Positions 658-8,061 of a stretch of DNA of 8,061 nucleotides are shown one piece after another. The notes under the pieces are model-generated. The model ran no database searches. It saw only the letters and a list, made by a program, of their open reading frames with translations, and was not told the origin of the DNA. Within the stretch, counting starts at the first letter, position 1. Each line of letters begins with the position of its first letter. This DNA is from Gemmatimonadota bacterium (GTDB taxonomy: Bacteria; JBHIER01; G020348925): positions 3,672,898-3,680,958 of the forward strand of contig CP070758.1 of assembly GCA_020348925.1 (NCBI GenBank). Reading direction: 5' to 3'. Made by a program: the position numbers and the translations under genes.

Positions 658-1641
658 TTACAGCCACCCCTGCTCCCGATACCAATCGGCCGTTATTCTT
701 AATCCTTCTTTCAATCCGACCTGGGACTCGAATCCGAAATCGCGTTTGGCCTTGGAGGGATCGCACAGCCAGTACCTCTGGACCAGCTCCCTGGCTTTCC
801 CCCAGGAGAGGGTGGCGGACTTCGGGGCGATGCGGCTCAGGAGTGGCGAGAATCCCGCCGCTGCCTGGGCGAAGAAGTCTGGCACATGAAGCGTGACGGC
901 CCTGACTGACAGCACCTCGGCGATGGCGTCCAGCACCTCGGCCCGGGAGTAAGGTTTTTCGTCTCCGATGTAATAGGTCTGTCCTGCGGCTCTTTGACTT
1001 TCCGCGGCCATAATGAACCCTCGGACGAGATCCTCCACGAAACAGAGGGTGATGTATTTCTTGCGGCCCAGACCCAAAAGCGGCTTGATCCCTTTTTTCA
1101 CTATTTGAAAATAGCTCAGTACCATGGTATCCCTGGGACCGTAGACGGCAGGCGGGCGGATGAGGGTCACGGGAATTTTCTCTTTGTAGGAGAGCACCTT
1201 TTCTTCGGCCTGGAGGTTGCTGCGCCCGTAATGGGTGATGGGTCGAGGCGGATCGGACTCGTCCACGCATTCTCCCTTGGTGCATGGTCCGGCCGCCGAT
1301 TGACTGCTGGCGTAAACGAATCTTTTCAGATTGGGGGCATGCTCGAGGCAGGTCTGAAGGAGAAGACCGGTTCCCTGAACATTGACCTCGTAGAAGGTTT
1401 CCGCCTCTTTCGCCTCCACGACACCGGCGATATGGTAGACGTAGTCCATCCCGTTCGCGGCCCCGGCCAGAGAGGAGGGATCTCTGACCTCACCGTACAC
1501 GTATTCCACAGAGACATCCTTCAACCATCTGAGATTGCTTGTCTTCCGGATCAAACACCGGACCTGGTATCCCTTTCTCACCAGGGCTTCGACCAGATGG
1601 CTGCCGATGAAGCCATTTCCTCCTGTAATGAGAACACGCAT
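658..1641 (-). CDS. cerR: Extended SDR, NAD(P)-dependent epimerase/dehydratase-like; probable 3-ketosphinganine reductase
   Basis: The product is a 327-residue extended short-chain dehydrogenase. It begins MRVLITGGNGFIGS, the Rossmann GxxGxxG motif (Gly7, Gly10, Gly13), followed by D54, the HIAG segment (70-73), YASSQSA (110-116), HYGRSN (137-142) and RPPAVYGP. The active-site Ser is probably S113 and the Tyr is Y138, but the Lys expected in YxxxK is Asn142 (codon AAC). The start at 1641 is chosen because the Rossmann strand begins there; the frame is open to another ATG at 1746, which would add 35 basic residues unlike the family. It diverges from the serine palmitoyltransferase gene with a 212-base gap. 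In Caulobacter, CerR, an epimerase-like SDR, reduces 3-ketosphinganine-type products (family knowledge). That role here is inferred from the neighbours; a nucleotide-sugar or sterol-type epimerase remains possible. Confidence 0.68.
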   Translation of the reverse strand: MRVLITGGNGFIGSHLVEALVRKGYQVRCLIRKTSNLRWLKDVSVEYVYGEVRDPSSLAGAANGMDYVYHIAGVVEAKEAETFYEVNVQGTGLLLQTCLEHAPNLKRFVYASSQSAAGPCTKGECVDESDPPRPITHYGRSNLQAEEKVLSYKEKIPVTLIRPPAVYGPRDTMVLSYFQIVKKGIKPLLGLGRKKYITLCFVEDLVRGFIMAAESQRAAGQTYYIGDEKPYSRAEVLDAIAEVLSVRAVTLHVPDFFAQAAAGFSPLLSRIAPKSATLSWGKARELVQRYWLCDPSKAKRDFGFESQVGLKEGLRITADWYREQGWL

Positions 1642-1714
1642 ATTAAATTTTCGTTTTAAAAAACTTCTCTTGATTCTGATGAAGGTGATACGTATATTAA
1701 ATCCTTGTTTTAAG
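1637..1714. repeat. Imperfect direct repeat at the 5' end of the SDR gene
   Basis: The 24 bases at 1637-1660, which include the start codon of the minus-strand SDR gene, match those at 1691-1714 at 19 positions, with a 54-base offset. Both copies contain ATATTAAAT and GTTTTAA. The upstream copy lies in the leader of that gene and would encode GFNIRIT-like residues if read in frame, an echo of KFNMRVL at the true start. It may be a small duplication or a chance match in AT-rich DNA. Confidence 0.35.
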
Positions 1715-1853
1715 ATACGCCCTTTTGCAAGTCCGTCGTCACGCATAGACTTCGGCCTCTTCGGACCCGGGCGTGTTTCAGGTAAAGTATACCACTTTCC
1801 CCCACGGGGCGCAAGTTAAAAATTGGCATGAATTTGGTGTAAGGAGTCTCATT

Positions 1854-3038
1854 ATGGATCTCTTCGCTCGATGTCGCAACTTCACGCGTGCCAAAGAGGC
1901 CATGGAAGCCGGCATATATCCCTACTTCAAACCCATCCAGTCCGGGGCCGGGTCCGAGGTGATCATTGACGGCCGGAAAATGATTATGATCGGCTCCAAC
2001 AATTACCTCGGCCTGACCAATCATCCCAAGGTGAAGGAGGCGGCGGTCAATGCCATCGAGCGCTATGGTACCGGATGTACCGGTTCACGTTTTCTCAACG
2101 GCACCCTGGATATTCACGAGGAGTTGGAGGAGCGGCTGGCTGCCTTCGTTGGGATGGAATCATCGCTCGTCTTCAGCACGGGTTTTCAGACGAACCTCGG
2201 GACCATAGCGACCATCGTAGGCAAAGACGATCTCATGTTCACCGACCGCTCCGATCACGCTTCCATCGTCGACGGCTGCCGCATGGCCTTCGGAAAGACT
2301 CTCAAGTATAAGCATAATGATATGGAAGATCTGGAACGCGTATTGGAGGCTCACAAGGATAAAGACGTGGGTAAAATCGTCGTGACCGATGGAGTGTTCA
2401 GCATGGAAGGTGATATCGTCAATCTGCCGGAATTGGTTACCCTGGCGAAAAAATACGAGACGAAGGTATACGTCGACGACGCCCACTCCATTGGGGTTCT
2501 GGGCGATCACGGACGGGGTACCGCAAATCACTTCGGCATCGGGGACAAGATAGACCTGGTTATGGGTACCTTCAGCAAGTCCTTCGCCTCATTGGGTGGT
2601 TTCATCGCCGGAGACGAGATCGTCATCCAATACATCAAGCATCACTCCCGGGCTTTCATCTTCAGCGCCAGCATGCCGCCCTCCGCCGTGGCCACGGTTC
2701 TGGCCTGCCTCGAGATTATGGAGAGCGACACCGAGCGCCTGGAACAACTGTGGCACAATACCCGGAAGATGAAGGAGGGATTTGACAGTATGGGCTTCAA
2801 CACCATTCAGAGCCAGACGCCCATTATCCCGATTTTGATCGGTGAGGACGAGGACTGCTTCTATTTCTGGAAACAACTCTTTGAAAACGGCATCTTCGCC
2901 AATACGGCCATCAGTCCGGCGGTTCCGCCTCACGAGGCTCTCATTCGCACCAGTTACATGGCCACGCATACCGAGGATCAACTGGATAAGGTTTTGAAAG
3001 TTTTTCATAAAGTAGGTAAAAACATAGGGATAATATAG
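1854..3038 (+). CDS. spt: Serine palmitoyltransferase (alpha-oxoamine synthase family)
   Basis: This is a 394-residue PLP enzyme that would condense L-serine with a long-chain acyl thioester to give a 3-ketosphinganine-type long-chain base, the committed step of sphingolipid synthesis in the cytoplasm. Family signatures are in order: GSNNYLGL (47-54), the glycine-rich GTGCTGSRFLNGT (72-84), SDHASIVDG (133-141) with H135 stacking on PLP, DGVFSMEGD (179-187), DDAHS (208-212) with D208 and H211 contacting the cofactor, and GTFSKSFASLGGFIAG (238-253) with K242 as the Schiff-base lysine. The start at 1854 has AAGGAG at 1841-1846, seven bases upstream; the open frame before it lacks family residues. 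BioF (AONS) and Kbl share this fold. The TFSKSFAS-GGF context and the cerS/cerR neighbours favour SPT. No strong promoter is visible upstream. Confidence 0.85.
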   Translation: MDLFARCRNFTRAKEAMEAGIYPYFKPIQSGAGSEVIIDGRKMIMIGSNNYLGLTNHPKVKEAAVNAIERYGTGCTGSRFLNGTLDIHEELEERLAAFVGMESSLVFSTGFQTNLGTIATIVGKDDLMFTDRSDHASIVDGCRMAFGKTLKYKHNDMEDLERVLEAHKDKDVGKIVVTDGVFSMEGDIVNLPELVTLAKKYETKVYVDDAHSIGVLGDHGRGTANHFGIGDKIDLVMGTFSKSFASLGGFIAGDEIVIQYIKHHSRAFIFSASMPPSAVATVLACLEIMESDTERLEQLWHNTRKMKEGFDSMGFNTIQSQTPIIPILIGEDEDCFYFWKQLFENGIFANTAISPAVPPHEALIRTSYMATHTEDQLDKVLKVFHKVGKNIGII

Positions 3039-3081
3039 AGGGAACTTCGATCCAATAGATTCACAAGACCCACATCAAACC

Positions 3082-4206
3082 ATGCCGGTGAACAACCTCA
3101 CAGTCGAACCTGTCAGAGATAAAAAGGGGCTTCGGCAATTTATTACCTTTCCGTGGGAAGTATATCGTCATGATCCCCTTTGGGTTCCCCCTCTCATCTC
3201 GGAACAGAAGGGCCTTTTCAATCGTAAGAAAAATCCGTTCTTCCGACATGCGCACGTCGAATTCTTCCTGGCCAGAAAAAACGGAAAAGTTGTCGGCCGG
3301 ATCGCTTCGATCATCAATCAAAACCATATTTCGTTCCACAATGACAAGACAGGTTTTTTCGGCTTTTTCGAGTGCCACAAAAACATTGAGGCGGCCCATG
3401 CTCTCCTTTCGACTGCCTGCAGTTGGTTACGGGAACGCGGAATGGATACGATGCGGGGGCCGATGAACTTTTCCACAAATGATGAGTGTGCACTCCTCAT
3501 CGATGGCTTCGATTCCAGTCCGGTCATTATGATGCCGTACAATCCCAGGTACTACCTGGATTTCATGGACGGGTTCGGGCTGAAAAAAGGCCGGGATCTC
3601 TATGCTTATTCCCTGACAGCAGATCGAGTGCCGCCGGAGGATCTCCGGGTAAAGCTTGAAAAGATCAGGAAAAGAGCCGGTATCATCATCCGTAAGCTGA
3701 ACATGAAGGATTATGAGGGGGAGATTCGACGCGTCAAGGAGGTCTATAATGCGGCCTGGAGCAGCAACTGGGGATTTGTCCCCATGACAGACGAGGAGAT
3801 AAATCACCTTGCTTCTCATCTGAAGAAGATAATCGATCCTGACCTTGTTTTCTTTGCGGAAGTCAGGGGGAAACCCATCGGCTTTTCCGTGGCTCTTCCC
3901 GATCTCAATCAGGCTCTAAAAAGGATAAACGGGAGGCTGTTCCCCTTCGGTCTGCTGAAACTCCTGTGGCATTCCAGGAAAATCGATGGTGTCCGCGTGC
4001 CCATAATGGGCGTCATCCATGAGTATCATAACAGGGGCATCGCCGCCATGTTCGGTGTTGAAAGCTTCATGGTCGGGACAAAAAAGGGATACGTCCGCGG
4101 GGAGTTATCCTGGATTCTGGAGGATAATATCCCTGTCCAACGGAACCTGGAGCGATTGGGGGCAAAAGTATATAAAACCTACCGGATCTATGAGATGTCC
4201 ATTTGA
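3082..4206 (+). CDS. cerS: GNAT-fold acyltransferase, probable bacterial ceramide synthase
   Basis: The product is a 374-residue soluble protein of the GNAT superfamily with no membrane segment. The N-terminal part has the FPWEVYRHDPLWVPPL block (23-38), a GNAT-like strand pair EFFLARKNGKVVGRIASI (60-77), and a conserved-looking MRGPMNFSTNDECALLIDG stretch (124-142) followed by MMPYNPRYY (150-158). A second GNAT-like half has VFFAEVRGKPIGFSVAL and the acyl-CoA-loop-like HEYHNRGIAAM. Bacterial ceramide synthases, described in Caulobacter, belong to the GNAT superfamily, are unrelated to eukaryotic CerS, and N-acylate the long-chain base. The assignment rests on length, fold and the position 43 bases after spt. 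There is no good Shine-Dalgarno before ATG 3082, so translation may be weak or coupled, or a GTG at 3088 could be used. The fallback is a GNAT-family protein of unknown substrate. Confidence 0.65.
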   Translation: MPVNNLTVEPVRDKKGLRQFITFPWEVYRHDPLWVPPLISEQKGLFNRKKNPFFRHAHVEFFLARKNGKVVGRIASIINQNHISFHNDKTGFFGFFECHKNIEAAHALLSTACSWLRERGMDTMRGPMNFSTNDECALLIDGFDSSPVIMMPYNPRYYLDFMDGFGLKKGRDLYAYSLTADRVPPEDLRVKLEKIRKRAGIIIRKLNMKDYEGEIRRVKEVYNAAWSSNWGFVPMTDEEINHLASHLKKIIDPDLVFFAEVRGKPIGFSVALPDLNQALKRINGRLFPFGLLKLLWHSRKIDGVRVPIMGVIHEYHNRGIAAMFGVESFMVGTKKGYVRGELSWILEDNIPVQRNLERLGAKVYKTYRIYEMSI

Positions 4207-4222
4207 ATGAAGGAGTGAATCG

Positions 4223-5242
4223 GTGGAAAGACTCCTTACACGACGTTCGATTCAACACGGCCTGAAGCTCTTTGTTCTCATCAGCCTGGCCAGTATTCTC
4301 CTCCTGGTTTTTCTGACCGGTGGCCAGGAGAGCTGGCTCAGCCTCCGCCATCTGCAGCCCCAATATATCCTCTTAGCCGTTCTTCTTATGGTATTGAGCT
4401 GGGGCTTCAACAGCCTCAAGGTGAAGATTCTGGGATGGGGCATCGACACGGCCATCTCCTACTGGAGCGTTTTCAAGGCCAACCTCGGCAATCTTTTCCT
4501 GGGCGCCGTCACACCCTTCGGCATGGGTGGGGTTCCCATGCAGGTCTATATTCTCTACCGGGGTGGTGTTGGGTTTGAAGAAGCCTTGGTCGCAAGCTAT
4601 GTAGTGAATTACCTGACCCAGGTTATCCTTTTCCTGACGTGCCTGGTGGTCTTGATTTTCCATCAGGGACTTATCTCCTATCTCGGGCTGAAGATCCTCT
4701 TCAGCTTTGTCACCTTCATCTATCTCGCCGTTTTTATCTTCGGGTTGATCGCCATTGTCAAGCCCAGGGAGACGAAGCGGTTTCTGGGTAAATTCGGACT
4801 CATGCTGGAAAAACGGCTCCAGTGGAAGATCTTTCAAACCCGGGCCTGGTTGAAGGCCGCCCTGCGTGGCTTGGATCGTGTTCTCTACTGTATCGGTATT
4901 TATTTTCGACAGGCCAAGGGCAAGCTCATACTGGCCATCCTTATGGGTGCCATTTCCCTCGCTTTCCACCTGTCGACAGCCAGTGCTATTTTAGCCGGGC
5001 TCGGTATCAAGCACAACTTTGCCGATGTGCTCATGATCCAGGTTATCCTTCAGTTTATTCTCTACTTCAGCCCCACCTTCGGCGGCAGCGGCGTGGCCGA
5101 GTTCGGGGCGGCCTCGCTCATGGCGATCTTCATGCCCACAGCCGTGCTGGGTGTCTACGTTCTGCTGTGGCGTTTCTTCTCCTACTTCCTCGCCGTCGGC
5201 CTGGGCGGCGTCGTCGTCCTGGGCACCATTGCCCAGAAATGA
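4223..5242 (+). CDS. YbhN/UPF0104 (LPG synthase TM, flippase-like) integral membrane protein
   Basis: The product has 339 residues with about seven or eight hydrophobic segments, roughly at 16-32, 48-66, 84-112, 122-147, 157-178, 235-258, 267-283 and 305-335, so it sits in the inner membrane. Two family signatures are visible. One is GNLFLGAVTPFGMGGVPMQV (89-108), the first P-x-G-x-GG motif. The other is SPTFGGSGVAEFGAASL (283-299), equivalent to the PSPGGxGxxE motif of lysylphosphatidylglycerol synthase TM/AglD-like proteins. The soluble aminoacyl-transferase domain of MprF is absent. Start is GTG at 4223 with AGGAG at 4211-4215, seven bases away; it lies 16 bases after cerS, so it is almost certainly co-transcribed. 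Members are annotated as flippase-like, with few tested substrates. The context suggests moving or handling ceramide or another sphingolipid; that is inference. Confidence 0.8.
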   Translation: MERLLTRRSIQHGLKLFVLISLASILLLVFLTGGQESWLSLRHLQPQYILLAVLLMVLSWGFNSLKVKILGWGIDTAISYWSVFKANLGNLFLGAVTPFGMGGVPMQVYILYRGGVGFEEALVASYVVNYLTQVILFLTCLVVLIFHQGLISYLGLKILFSFVTFIYLAVFIFGLIAIVKPRETKRFLGKFGLMLEKRLQWKIFQTRAWLKAALRGLDRVLYCIGIYFRQAKGKLILAILMGAISLAFHLSTASAILAGLGIKHNFADVLMIQVILQFILYFSPTFGGSGVAEFGAASLMAIFMPTAVLGVYVLLWRFFSYFLAVGLGGVVVLGTIAQK

Positions 5243-5721: not shown

Positions 5722-8061
5722 ATGGAAAAGAGTACTTCTTATTGTTGTCATACGGTGATGCTTGTTATTATTGCGGTGTGTGGTCTTGTGATGCTGGTGA
5801 CTCCCTTGAAGGTTCTCGGACAGGCGTATGAGGATGCCTGCGAGTGCTGGGACAGTGAAGGCTGCGCTTGCAGCGAAGATTACGACCCGTCCGGCGATTA
5901 CACCTTCGACGAATTGTACGCGTGTGAGAGTGTCCCGCAGTGTAGCCTCATTGTATGTAACCAGGCTTACGTCTGCAGTCTGTTCAATGAAGGTGTGACC
6001 TATGAGGAACTCGTGACATGTGTAGAGGAGTTTGTCGATCTGTCTCAGTCCGGTCTGCCTGCAGGATTCTTTTTAGCATTTGCTTTACAACAATGCAACT
6101 TCTCTATTGAAGAGATACTGGCAGCTGGCTTACCGCCGTGCTACCTGATGCTAAACATTTCCATCGGCGGTGTCACCATTTCCTGTGAGGTGCTCGATTA
6201 CGTGACCTTAGAGGGGGTCATCCCATGTTTTACCCAGTTGATTGAGGATATGATATCTTCTGGAATAGGTTTGTTTTCTCCAGAATTAGCACCATTCTTC
6301 AGTGCTATTATCAATTGCTCTATAGTTGAGCAATGCGATATACCTCCGGATGAGCTCGGTGTAACGGCGTGTGATCTCATGATATGTGAGATTCTTAATT
6401 TTTTCTTGCAGGGAGGCCCAGGTAGCGGTGATCTCTGCGATCTGATCTATGACGCGACCTTTGACGATCTCGTCGCGTGTAGTGAAGAGTTGGAAGCTCT
6501 GATCGATCTACTCACTCAATTAGGTCAAGGAGGATCAGGATCTGGCGTGGAAATGGACCCGCTGTTTATGGTCCTGTCCATGCTGATGGGGTGCTCCGAT
6601 GTTCCCCTGAATGATCTATTGGACTTTGGAATGCCGCCGTGCCTTCTCACGTTCATGCAAACCGCCACTAGCTGTTCTCTGTACGATAAGGGTGTCACCC
6701 CTGACGATTACACAGCGTGTGCCGAAGAGGTCATTCCGCTGTTTGGAGACCAGCTCGGAGGTCTCATCGGAGAAGAGCAGTTGTTGCTCATATCGTATTC
6801 ATATTCGTGCCAATTGCTCCAGGATGAGTGTGTAACTTTGGATTCGTTGCTCACAGAGGGTGTGCCACCGTGCTTTCTCCTTTTTTGTGGTGTATCCGCC
6901 TGTAGCACGTACAAAGCGGGTGCAAGCACACAGGAAATTCTCACATGCTTCGATGATGTTTTTACTGAGGAACTTCTCGCTCTGCTGGGAAGTATCTTTG
7001 GAGGTTTTGAATTAGATATAGAAACTTTGCGTGCATTCATGAGTTGCGATCTCTATCAGCAATGCGATATCCCTCTCGAAGAGATGCTGGGAAGTGTATC
7101 GGCGTGCAGTCTTTTAAAGTGCGTTGAACCTGTCCCTGTCTGCAGTCTGATCAAATCGGGTGTGGACCTCGGAGAGCTTATGTCTTGCGAAGTCCATGCC
7201 TGTAGTATTTATAAATGTGATCCGACAACGCTGTGCGATCTGATTTCAGACGATGTACCCGTCGGGGATCTCCTTGAGTGTGGGGCGCCTGCCTGCAGCA
7301 TATATAAGTGTGATTCAAGTAAGCTGTGTGCCCTGCTTACTGAGAACGCAGGTGTCGGGGATCTCCTTGAGTGTGGGGCACCTGCCTGTAGTATATACAA
7401 GTGTGATTCGGGTAAGTTGTGCGATTTGGTCTCCGAAAACGTACCCGTTTCCGAGCTTTTAAAGTGTCCAATACCTCCGGATCCGTGCGACATATACGAC
7501 TGCGATCCGACGAAGCTGTGCGATCTGGTTGATGAAGATGTAGCCGTAGGGGATCTCCTGAATTGCAGTGCCAGTGCCTGTGACATCTATACCTGTGATG
7601 GGACGACCCTTCCCGATCTCATCACACAGGGGCAAGCGTGCGATCTCTATTCTCCCCCGTGCGAAGTACCCTTGTGCGACCTGATCGACGAGGGGGCACA
7701 ACCGGCGGCGCTTCTCGCCTGCTTGGATAGCCCATGCGAGCTGTGTGATTGCGACGTTGCCGATGTCTGTCCACATCTCACGCCTGGTGATGACTGCGAT
7801 GGTGATTTCGGCCTCAACGGCGACGAATGCAACGGGGGGACAGATCCCTGTGTCTTCGATGACAGGGACGACGACACTGTCTCGGTTTTCTTCGACAACT
7901 GTCCTGACGATCCCAATCATGGTCAGGAGGACGGGGATGTGGACGGGGTGGGTGACGTCTGTGACAACTGTCCGGCGGTATACAATCCCGGCCAGGAGGA
8001 TTTCAATGACGACGGTATTGGCAACCACTGCCAGGACTCCGACGACGACGGCGTACTGGAC
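5722..8061 (+). CDS. Large secreted Cys-module repeat protein with thrombospondin type 3-like repeats (partial, 3' end outside window)
   Basis: This frame is open from ATG 5722 to the window edge (780 codons, no stop). AAGGAG sits seven bases before the start. Residues 1-35 look like a signal peptide: EK, a hydrophobic core at 12-29, and a likely cut after VLGQA. Residues 36-84 are Cys-rich and acidic. Five long units begin at C85, C155, C239, C318 and C394. Each opens with a C-x13/14-C module (for example CSLFNEGVTYEELVTC), has a 24-37-residue hydrophobic insert, and mostly closes with further Cys pairs. From C474 short units of 31-33 residues follow, with the pattern C-x4-C-x5-C-x14-C. Residues 725-780 hold DNCPxxxNP and DxDxDGxGD motifs of TSP3-type calcium-binding repeats. 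The protein is acidic and presumably exported and disulfide-bonded. I do not recognise the Cys-module family and assign no function; adhesion or a surface role is only a guess. Confidence 0.85.
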   Translation, partial: MEKSTSYCCHTVMLVIIAVCGLVMLVTPLKVLGQAYEDACECWDSEGCACSEDYDPSGDYTFDELYACESVPQCSLIVCNQAYVCSLFNEGVTYEELVTCVEEFVDLSQSGLPAGFFLAFALQQCNFSIEEILAAGLPPCYLMLNISIGGVTISCEVLDYVTLEGVIPCFTQLIEDMISSGIGLFSPELAPFFSAIINCSIVEQCDIPPDELGVTACDLMICEILNFFLQGGPGSGDLCDLIYDATFDDLVACSEELEALIDLLTQLGQGGSGSGVEMDPLFMVLSMLMGCSDVPLNDLLDFGMPPCLLTFMQTATSCSLYDKGVTPDDYTACAEEVIPLFGDQLGGLIGEEQLLLISYSYSCQLLQDECVTLDSLLTEGVPPCFLLFCGVSACSTYKAGASTQEILTCFDDVFTEELLALLGSIFGGFELDIETLRAFMSCDLYQQCDIPLEEMLGSVSACSLLKCVEPVPVCSLIKSGVDLGELMSCEVHACSIYKCDPTTLCDLISDDVPVGDLLECGAPACSIYKCDSSKLCALLTENAGVGDLLECGAPACSIYKCDSGKLCDLVSENVPVSELLKCPIPPDPCDIYDCDPTKLCDLVDEDVAVGDLLNCSASACDIYTCDGTTLPDLITQGQACDLYSPPCEVPLCDLIDEGAQPAALLACLDSPCELCDCDVADVCPHLTPGDDCDGDFGLNGDECNGGTDPCVFDDRDDDTVSVFFDNCPDDPNHGQEDGDVDGVGDVCDNCPAVYNPGQEDFNDDGIGNHCQDSDDDGVLD
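7171..7641 (+). repeat. Five tandem 31-33-codon repeats inside the secreted protein gene
   Basis: The units span residues 484-514, 515-545, 546-576, 577-609 and 610-640 (31, 31, 31, 33 and 31 codons). Each reads roughly G-[DE]-L-[LM]-x-C-x4-C-[SD]-I-Y-x-C-D-x3-L-C-x-L-[ILV], and the last has Pro where the third Cys should be. The second and third copies are closest: over the first 66 bases (7264-7329 against 7357-7422) I count 8 differences, 7 of them synonymous. This points to a fairly recent duplication followed by selection on the protein sequence. Confidence 0.8.

Follow-up and report, generated by a model that had tools for sequence, protein, structure and literature searches.

The window, by which we mean the whole stretch of 8,061 nucleotides that was analysed, is an entire contig, flanked on both sides by spacers of 100 N in an assembly of 5.04 Mb, so that its scaffold neighbours are unproven. 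Its source is an uncultured bacterium without sequenced close relatives; by rpoB the genome is nearest several small phyla, at ~60–65% identity, and it is the sole representative of its phylum among the genomes compared. On the plus strand, an ATG at position 5722, with the ribosome-binding site AAGGAG just 5' of it, starts a frame of 780 codons that runs free of stops up to the last base, 8061, where the contig ends and the gene does not. The initial annotation had reported 780 codons open to the edge with no stop; this is confirmed, and the frame is a real gene. The following features can be distinguished in it.

5722–8061, plus strand: open reading frame of the putative Cys-module surface protein, 780 codons, leaving the contig; AAGGAG before the ATG.
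5722–5820, plus strand: signal-peptide-like N-terminus, residues 1–33, likely cleaved between VLG and QA to give a mature N-terminal Gln (sequence inspection; the layout of the paralogue is alike, with SSG and QT).
5839–5871, plus strand: CxCWxxxGCxC cluster, residues 40–50, common to the paralogue L032 (blastp).
5974–7140, plus strand: five long Cys modules, residues 85–473, 70–84 residues each, with an extra helical insert (alignments A2 and A4; matches to their own HMM of 76–98 bits).
7141–7611, plus strand: five short tandem Cys units C-x14-C-x4-C-x4-C-x5, 31 residues (one of 33), predicted alpha-solenoid (alignment A1; AF2 core pLDDT 86–91; purifying selection).
7612–7749, plus strand: degenerate solenoid end, residues 631–676, with the last module at C652 (Cys positions; low pLDDT).
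7750–8061, plus strand: Asp-rich TSP3-like stalk, DxDxDGxGDxCDNCPxxxNPxQ, continuing past the window (Pfam TSP_3 16.9 bits, below the cut-off of 25; NCBIfam MtsC partial, 2.3e-10).
7922–8061, plus strand: 140-bp overlap with another contig end (G000:C1:2295542-2295681, minus strand), leading to L010:6622-10682(-) (exact identity; both ends abut 100-N spacers).

The remainder of the window holds, at 658–5242, a sphingolipid-type cluster of an epimerase-like SDR (minus strand), a serine palmitoyltransferase (572 bits to NF047600, whose cut-off is 640), an acyltransferase of the GNAT family and an LPG_synthase_TM/flippase protein. It could be the set of Spt, CerR and bCerS, the three genes named in the literature (PMC11334938), the assignment of the SDR and the GNAT protein within that set being a guess.

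All eleven Cys-x13/14-Cys modules listed in the initial annotation were recovered, at C85, 155, 239, 318, 394, 474, 505, 536, 567, 600 and 652, each with its partner Cys 13–14 residues on. The null model consisted of 20,000 composition-preserving shuffles of residues 68–676. That region contains 16 C-x13/14-C pairs (shuffle mean 2.7, maximum 10), 16 C-x4-C pairs (mean 3.4, maximum 12), nine copies of the full pattern (maximum 1) and three exact C-x14-C-x4-C-x4-C-x5-C runs (maximum 1), and none of the 20,000 shuffles reached any of these four counts. The composition of the Cys region is 55 Cys in 609 residues, its identity autocorrelation peaks at lag 31, and residues 34–676 are strongly acidic (108 D+E vs 12 K+R).

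The modules form two classes, five of ~70–84 residues (from C85, 155, 239, 318 and 394) and six of ~31 residues (C474, 505, 536, 567, 600 and 652); five of the short units stand in tight tandem from C474 to L630, and the sixth, which is degenerate, starts at C652. The core design is the set of six 31-residue units, while the five ~80-residue units bear an extra helical insert. In a hand alignment, the short unit appears to us to be a long unit that lacks a hydrophobic insert of 24–37 residues together with its closing Cys pair. Between short units, pS (0.51–0.88) exceeds pN (0.13–0.41), so that the differences are mostly synonymous, indicating that the repeats are conserved as protein; the Cys repeats are translated and under purifying selection.

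A structure predicted with AlphaFold2 for residues 467–676, without an alignment, reached in the best model a mean pLDDT of 71.7 and a pTM of 0.63, with 86–91 in the central units; in it each stretch of 31 residues forms three short helices, and these stack into a solenoid. It is the one confident model of five, the other four lying between 30.7 and 51.9. For the long units (residues 285–540) the prediction was all helical, with a pLDDT of 54 and a pTM of 0.34, which is too poor to use. The regular solenoid that had been expected from the repeats was thus predicted for the short units, whereas for the long ones there is a low-confidence model only. A Foldseek search of the PDB and of viral models gave no match to the predicted fold at E ≤ 0.001. 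The top VIA-align rows for the short-unit model were importin-alpha ARM solenoids, with Z 3.9 and an rmsd of 12.3 over 207 residues, a Z so low for a helical repeat that it may reflect a common arrangement only.

It had also been stated that no named family with this Cys spacing was known, and the searches agree. A Pfam scan of the 780-residue protein to E 10 matched TSP_3 only and left the modules unmatched, and searches of NCBIfam and of PDB sequences gave no convincing match on the Cys modules. We found no relative of the modules in a peptide-pattern scan of 84,980 genomes or among plasmids, phages and viral contigs, and only weak, chance-level matches in searches of 145 and 386 domain-wide genomes and of the two phyla closest in rpoB (8 and 4 genomes). 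A DNA pattern with degenerate positions, made from the short unit, had no match in the genome contig collection; the pattern finds four copies in the window, and the version run, two positions tighter, should by codon reading find three. A looser DNA pattern matched viral contigs in 15-bp repeats coding C-x4-C runs, which were rejected as unrelated. It should be noted that the negative results on distribution are weak, because the window protein, run by the same method to E 10 against its own genome, did not recover the paralogue L032, and relatives as divergent as this would be overlooked in other genomes as well; therefore, we make no claim that the module family is confined to this lineage.

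Beyond the modules, residues 677–780 form an Asp-rich stretch that the initial annotation had called a TSP3-like stalk. The pattern supports this name, but the Pfam TSP_3 score of 16.9 bits lies under the gathering score of 25, so that the stretch is TSP3-like only, and the partial NCBIfam MtsC match is likewise under its curated cut-off. The Asp ladder presumably binds Ca2+. The last 140 bp of the window recur without a mismatch at the end of one further contig, which also lies beside an N spacer; contigs sharing a k-1 overlap in an assembly graph would look like this. That contig continues the frame for 1,307 residues past the overlap, to a total of ~2,087, and the continuation (L010:6622-10682(-)) carries a Cohesin match (4e-10) and a sorting domain, recognised both as Por_Secre_tail (PF18962, 34 bits, cut-off 27) and as TIGR04183 (39.2 bits, cut-off 23). 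Reading downstream for the C-terminal domain, as had been suggested, therefore gives a type IX sorting domain, on condition that the 140-bp join is right, and the statement that the protein ends in TSP3-like repeats did not hold, since these repeats are preceded by the Cys head and followed by a large C-terminal region.

The join to the L010 contig is supported by the paralogue L032 (ORF 4665-9602, corresponding to G000:C1:3645664-3650601), because this protein has the same domain order in a single ORF: a signal-peptide-like start, ACDCWNTDGCDC, Cys modules, an Asp-rich MopE/TSP3-like stalk and the same C-terminal region, which is cut off by the end of its own contig. From the stalk onward, L032 and the continuation of the window gene share 65.6% identity over 627 residues. 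Pfam matched L032 with MopE only, and the putative metal-binding motifs of MopE type are in the stalk, not in the modules. The cluster CxCWxxxGCxC, which reads CECWDSEGCAC at residues 40–50 of the window protein, occurs among the 4,803 ORFs searched in the window protein and L032 only. The Cys modules of L032 are ~104 residues each (six aligned), and their repeat number differs from that in the window protein. An HMM of the long window modules (A4) finds L032 with E 1.4e-8, hhalign of the two module sets gives 1.3e-7 and 94% probability, whole-protein blastp gives 1.4e-18 with the stalk included, and the module scores lie above all of ~1,000 composition shuffles in both directions. By these scores the two sets of modules are diverged yet homologous and constitute a family; a search of 753 kb of the genome, in stretches rich in sorting-domain genes, yielded no third member.

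The T9SS route for the linked C-terminal region is well supported, because the SprA/Sov translocon is present in the genome (TIGR04189, 568 + 135 bits, over the cut-off) and 150 matches to the sorting domain (Por_Secre_tail) are listed in its 5 Mb, nearly all over the cut-off. Together with the start of the window protein, which by inspection consists of Lys, a hydrophobic stretch and then small residues, this favours the earlier description of an extracellular protein, and anchoring at the surface appears probable to us.

Several further observations concern the sorting-domain proteins of this genome. The C-terminal region is common to L032:4665-9602, L051:1714-6288, L051:6986-10999 and L010:6622-10682, which are 36–66% identical in it and differ in their N-terminal heads; these heads include Cys modules, a beta-propeller (TIGR04275) and possibly a beta-helix. 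A Gln stands just after the likely cleavage site in 12 of 29 sorting-domain proteins of the loci examined, according to a crude script (L051:1714 and L040:3589, for example) and, by eye, also in the window (5818–5823) and in L032; the pyroglutamate Q-rule has been reported as specific to Bacteroidetes (PMC5837995). Several of the sorting-domain proteins bear dockerin or cohesin domains, and the organism would have a large T9SS secretome, perhaps with cohesin–dockerin assemblies. One locus, L009:6602-8323(-), combines an amidohydrolase, a dockerin and three Dictyostelium CTDC repeats (PF00526, 1.4e-17).

Taken together, these data make it probable, in our estimate, that the Cys modules are a helical head for binding, locked by disulfides and carried by a surface protein of ~2,087 residues that is exported through T9SS; the window gene would encode the N-terminal part of this protein. 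According to this model, the signal peptide would direct Sec export, and the Cys region, once in the periplasm, would fold as a long, acidic alpha-solenoid made up of short helices, its repeats stapled by two disulfides per short unit and two to three per long unit. The TSP3-like, presumably Ca2+-loaded stalk would link this head to the ~1,300-residue C-terminal region, cohesin-like and with a type A sorting domain, and the latter would take the protein through T9SS to the cell surface. There the solenoid would most likely serve as a binding head, for adhesion or partner capture, that resists proteases and denaturation. The heads would be swapped on a shared display chassis, L032 and the beta-propeller protein using the same C-terminal region. 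The binding role is suggested by the position of the head, the diversity of heads among paralogues and the usual role of solenoids.

The module array may instead be a passive rigid spacer or a surface-layer building block, without a specific ligand, which we regard as unlikely but worth weighing. The array is repetitive, acidic and Cys-rich and lies at the end opposite the sorting domain, and the two paralogues are unlike in how many repeats it has, all of which would suit a spacer; its N-terminal place is the most distal one in a T9SS protein, and a beta-propeller is the head there in a protein with the same C-terminal region, both of which argue for a head, without being decisive.

It is rather improbable that the true 3' end of the gene is not on the L010 contig and that the 140-bp overlap is a repeat common to two genes. 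The overlap does fall within TSP3-like sequence of a sort that many genes contain (47 DNA matches in the genome), and the assembly graph probably branched there, because the assembler left the contigs unmerged. Nevertheless, copies at 100% occur at two places only, both of them contig ends beside 100-N spacers, while the next best match is at 82%, and L032 crosses the junction in the same order in one ORF.

The disulfides of the proposed binding head are suggested by the numbers of Cys. The count is even in every unit of the window protein from C85 to residue 630, the tail beyond being irregular, so that the even arrangement noted earlier holds unit by unit over this range; the units contain 4 or 6 Cys in the window protein and 6 or 8 in L032. 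Long modules 1 and 3 of the window protein are without both the third and the sixth Cys, and in L032 the two modules of six that are without the Cys of column 54 are also those without the Cys of column 93, the numbers being small in both cases. Parity, paired losses and a secreted protein would all fit oxidation and pairing of the Cys; VKOR was not found in the genome, which may count against the disulfides. Metal binding in place of disulfides, with the Cys region as a Cys-rich store or a metal-loaded repeat, is quite improbable: the many Cys, the very acidic composition and the MopE-type motifs of the L032 stalk would agree with it, but the units have no CxxC, CxxCH or clustered His/Met pattern, a protein with a signal peptide and a T9SS route is more likely to be oxidised, Cys losses come in pairs, the number per unit stays even up to residue 630, and the MopE motifs are outside the modules.

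Among described proteins, the predicted disulfide-locked head is most readily compared with the cysteine-rich Hcp proteins of Helicobacter (HcpB, HcpC; Sel1-like) and with Csep1P, secreted bacterial alpha/alpha-solenoids in which regularly placed disulfides strengthen the repeats (PMC12904459, PMC3851747), the disulfides of the window protein being our inference. The Sel1-like/Hcp unit is a helix-turn-helix of 36–38 residues (PMC3851747), whereas the window unit has 31 residues and three short helices in the one confident model, and the Sel1 profile PF08238 was unmatched by the window protein in the Pfam scan to E 10. In Campylobacter Csep1P, paired Cys are nine positions apart (PMC12904459), in contrast to C-x14-C-x4-C-x4-C-x5 here, and the window protein is much longer than either, with its stalk and T9SS sorting region. 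Since unit length, Cys spacing and profile all differ, we judge that it does not belong to Sel1/Hcp. Armadillo repeats, as in importin alpha, also have three helices per repeat but no sequence match to the window protein. ARM repeats have ~42 residues, are cytosolic or nuclear and are without disulfide staples. The protein resembles type A cargo of T9SS (TIGR04183 / PF18962) in its signal-peptide-like start, its sorting domain on the linked contig and the presence of SprA, and differs in a head family that has not been described. Its stalk shares its pattern with thrombospondin type 3 and MtsC-like stalks, although here it is merely a linker from the head to the C-terminal region.

Accounting for these likenesses and differences, the modules are most aptly described as a repeat family that is new but belongs to a general kind already known, and that serves as the head of a T9SS surface protein. 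More tentatively, and with the odds somewhat against it, they could represent a new family with a fold of its own, built on a 31-residue, three-helix, two-disulfide unit that inserts expand to ~80–104 residues and that serves as an interchangeable head on a T9SS chassis in an unsampled phylum.

Outside the cytoplasm, helical solenoids stapled by disulfides are uncommon, and the bacterial examples that we found in the literature are Hcp and Csep1P. A repeat type absent from Pfam and NCBIfam is added here. The near-exact 31-residue repeat would be a compact and stable scaffold, which structural biologists could test with a short-repeat construct. The two paralogues show how one lineage may expand and diversify such units as surface heads.
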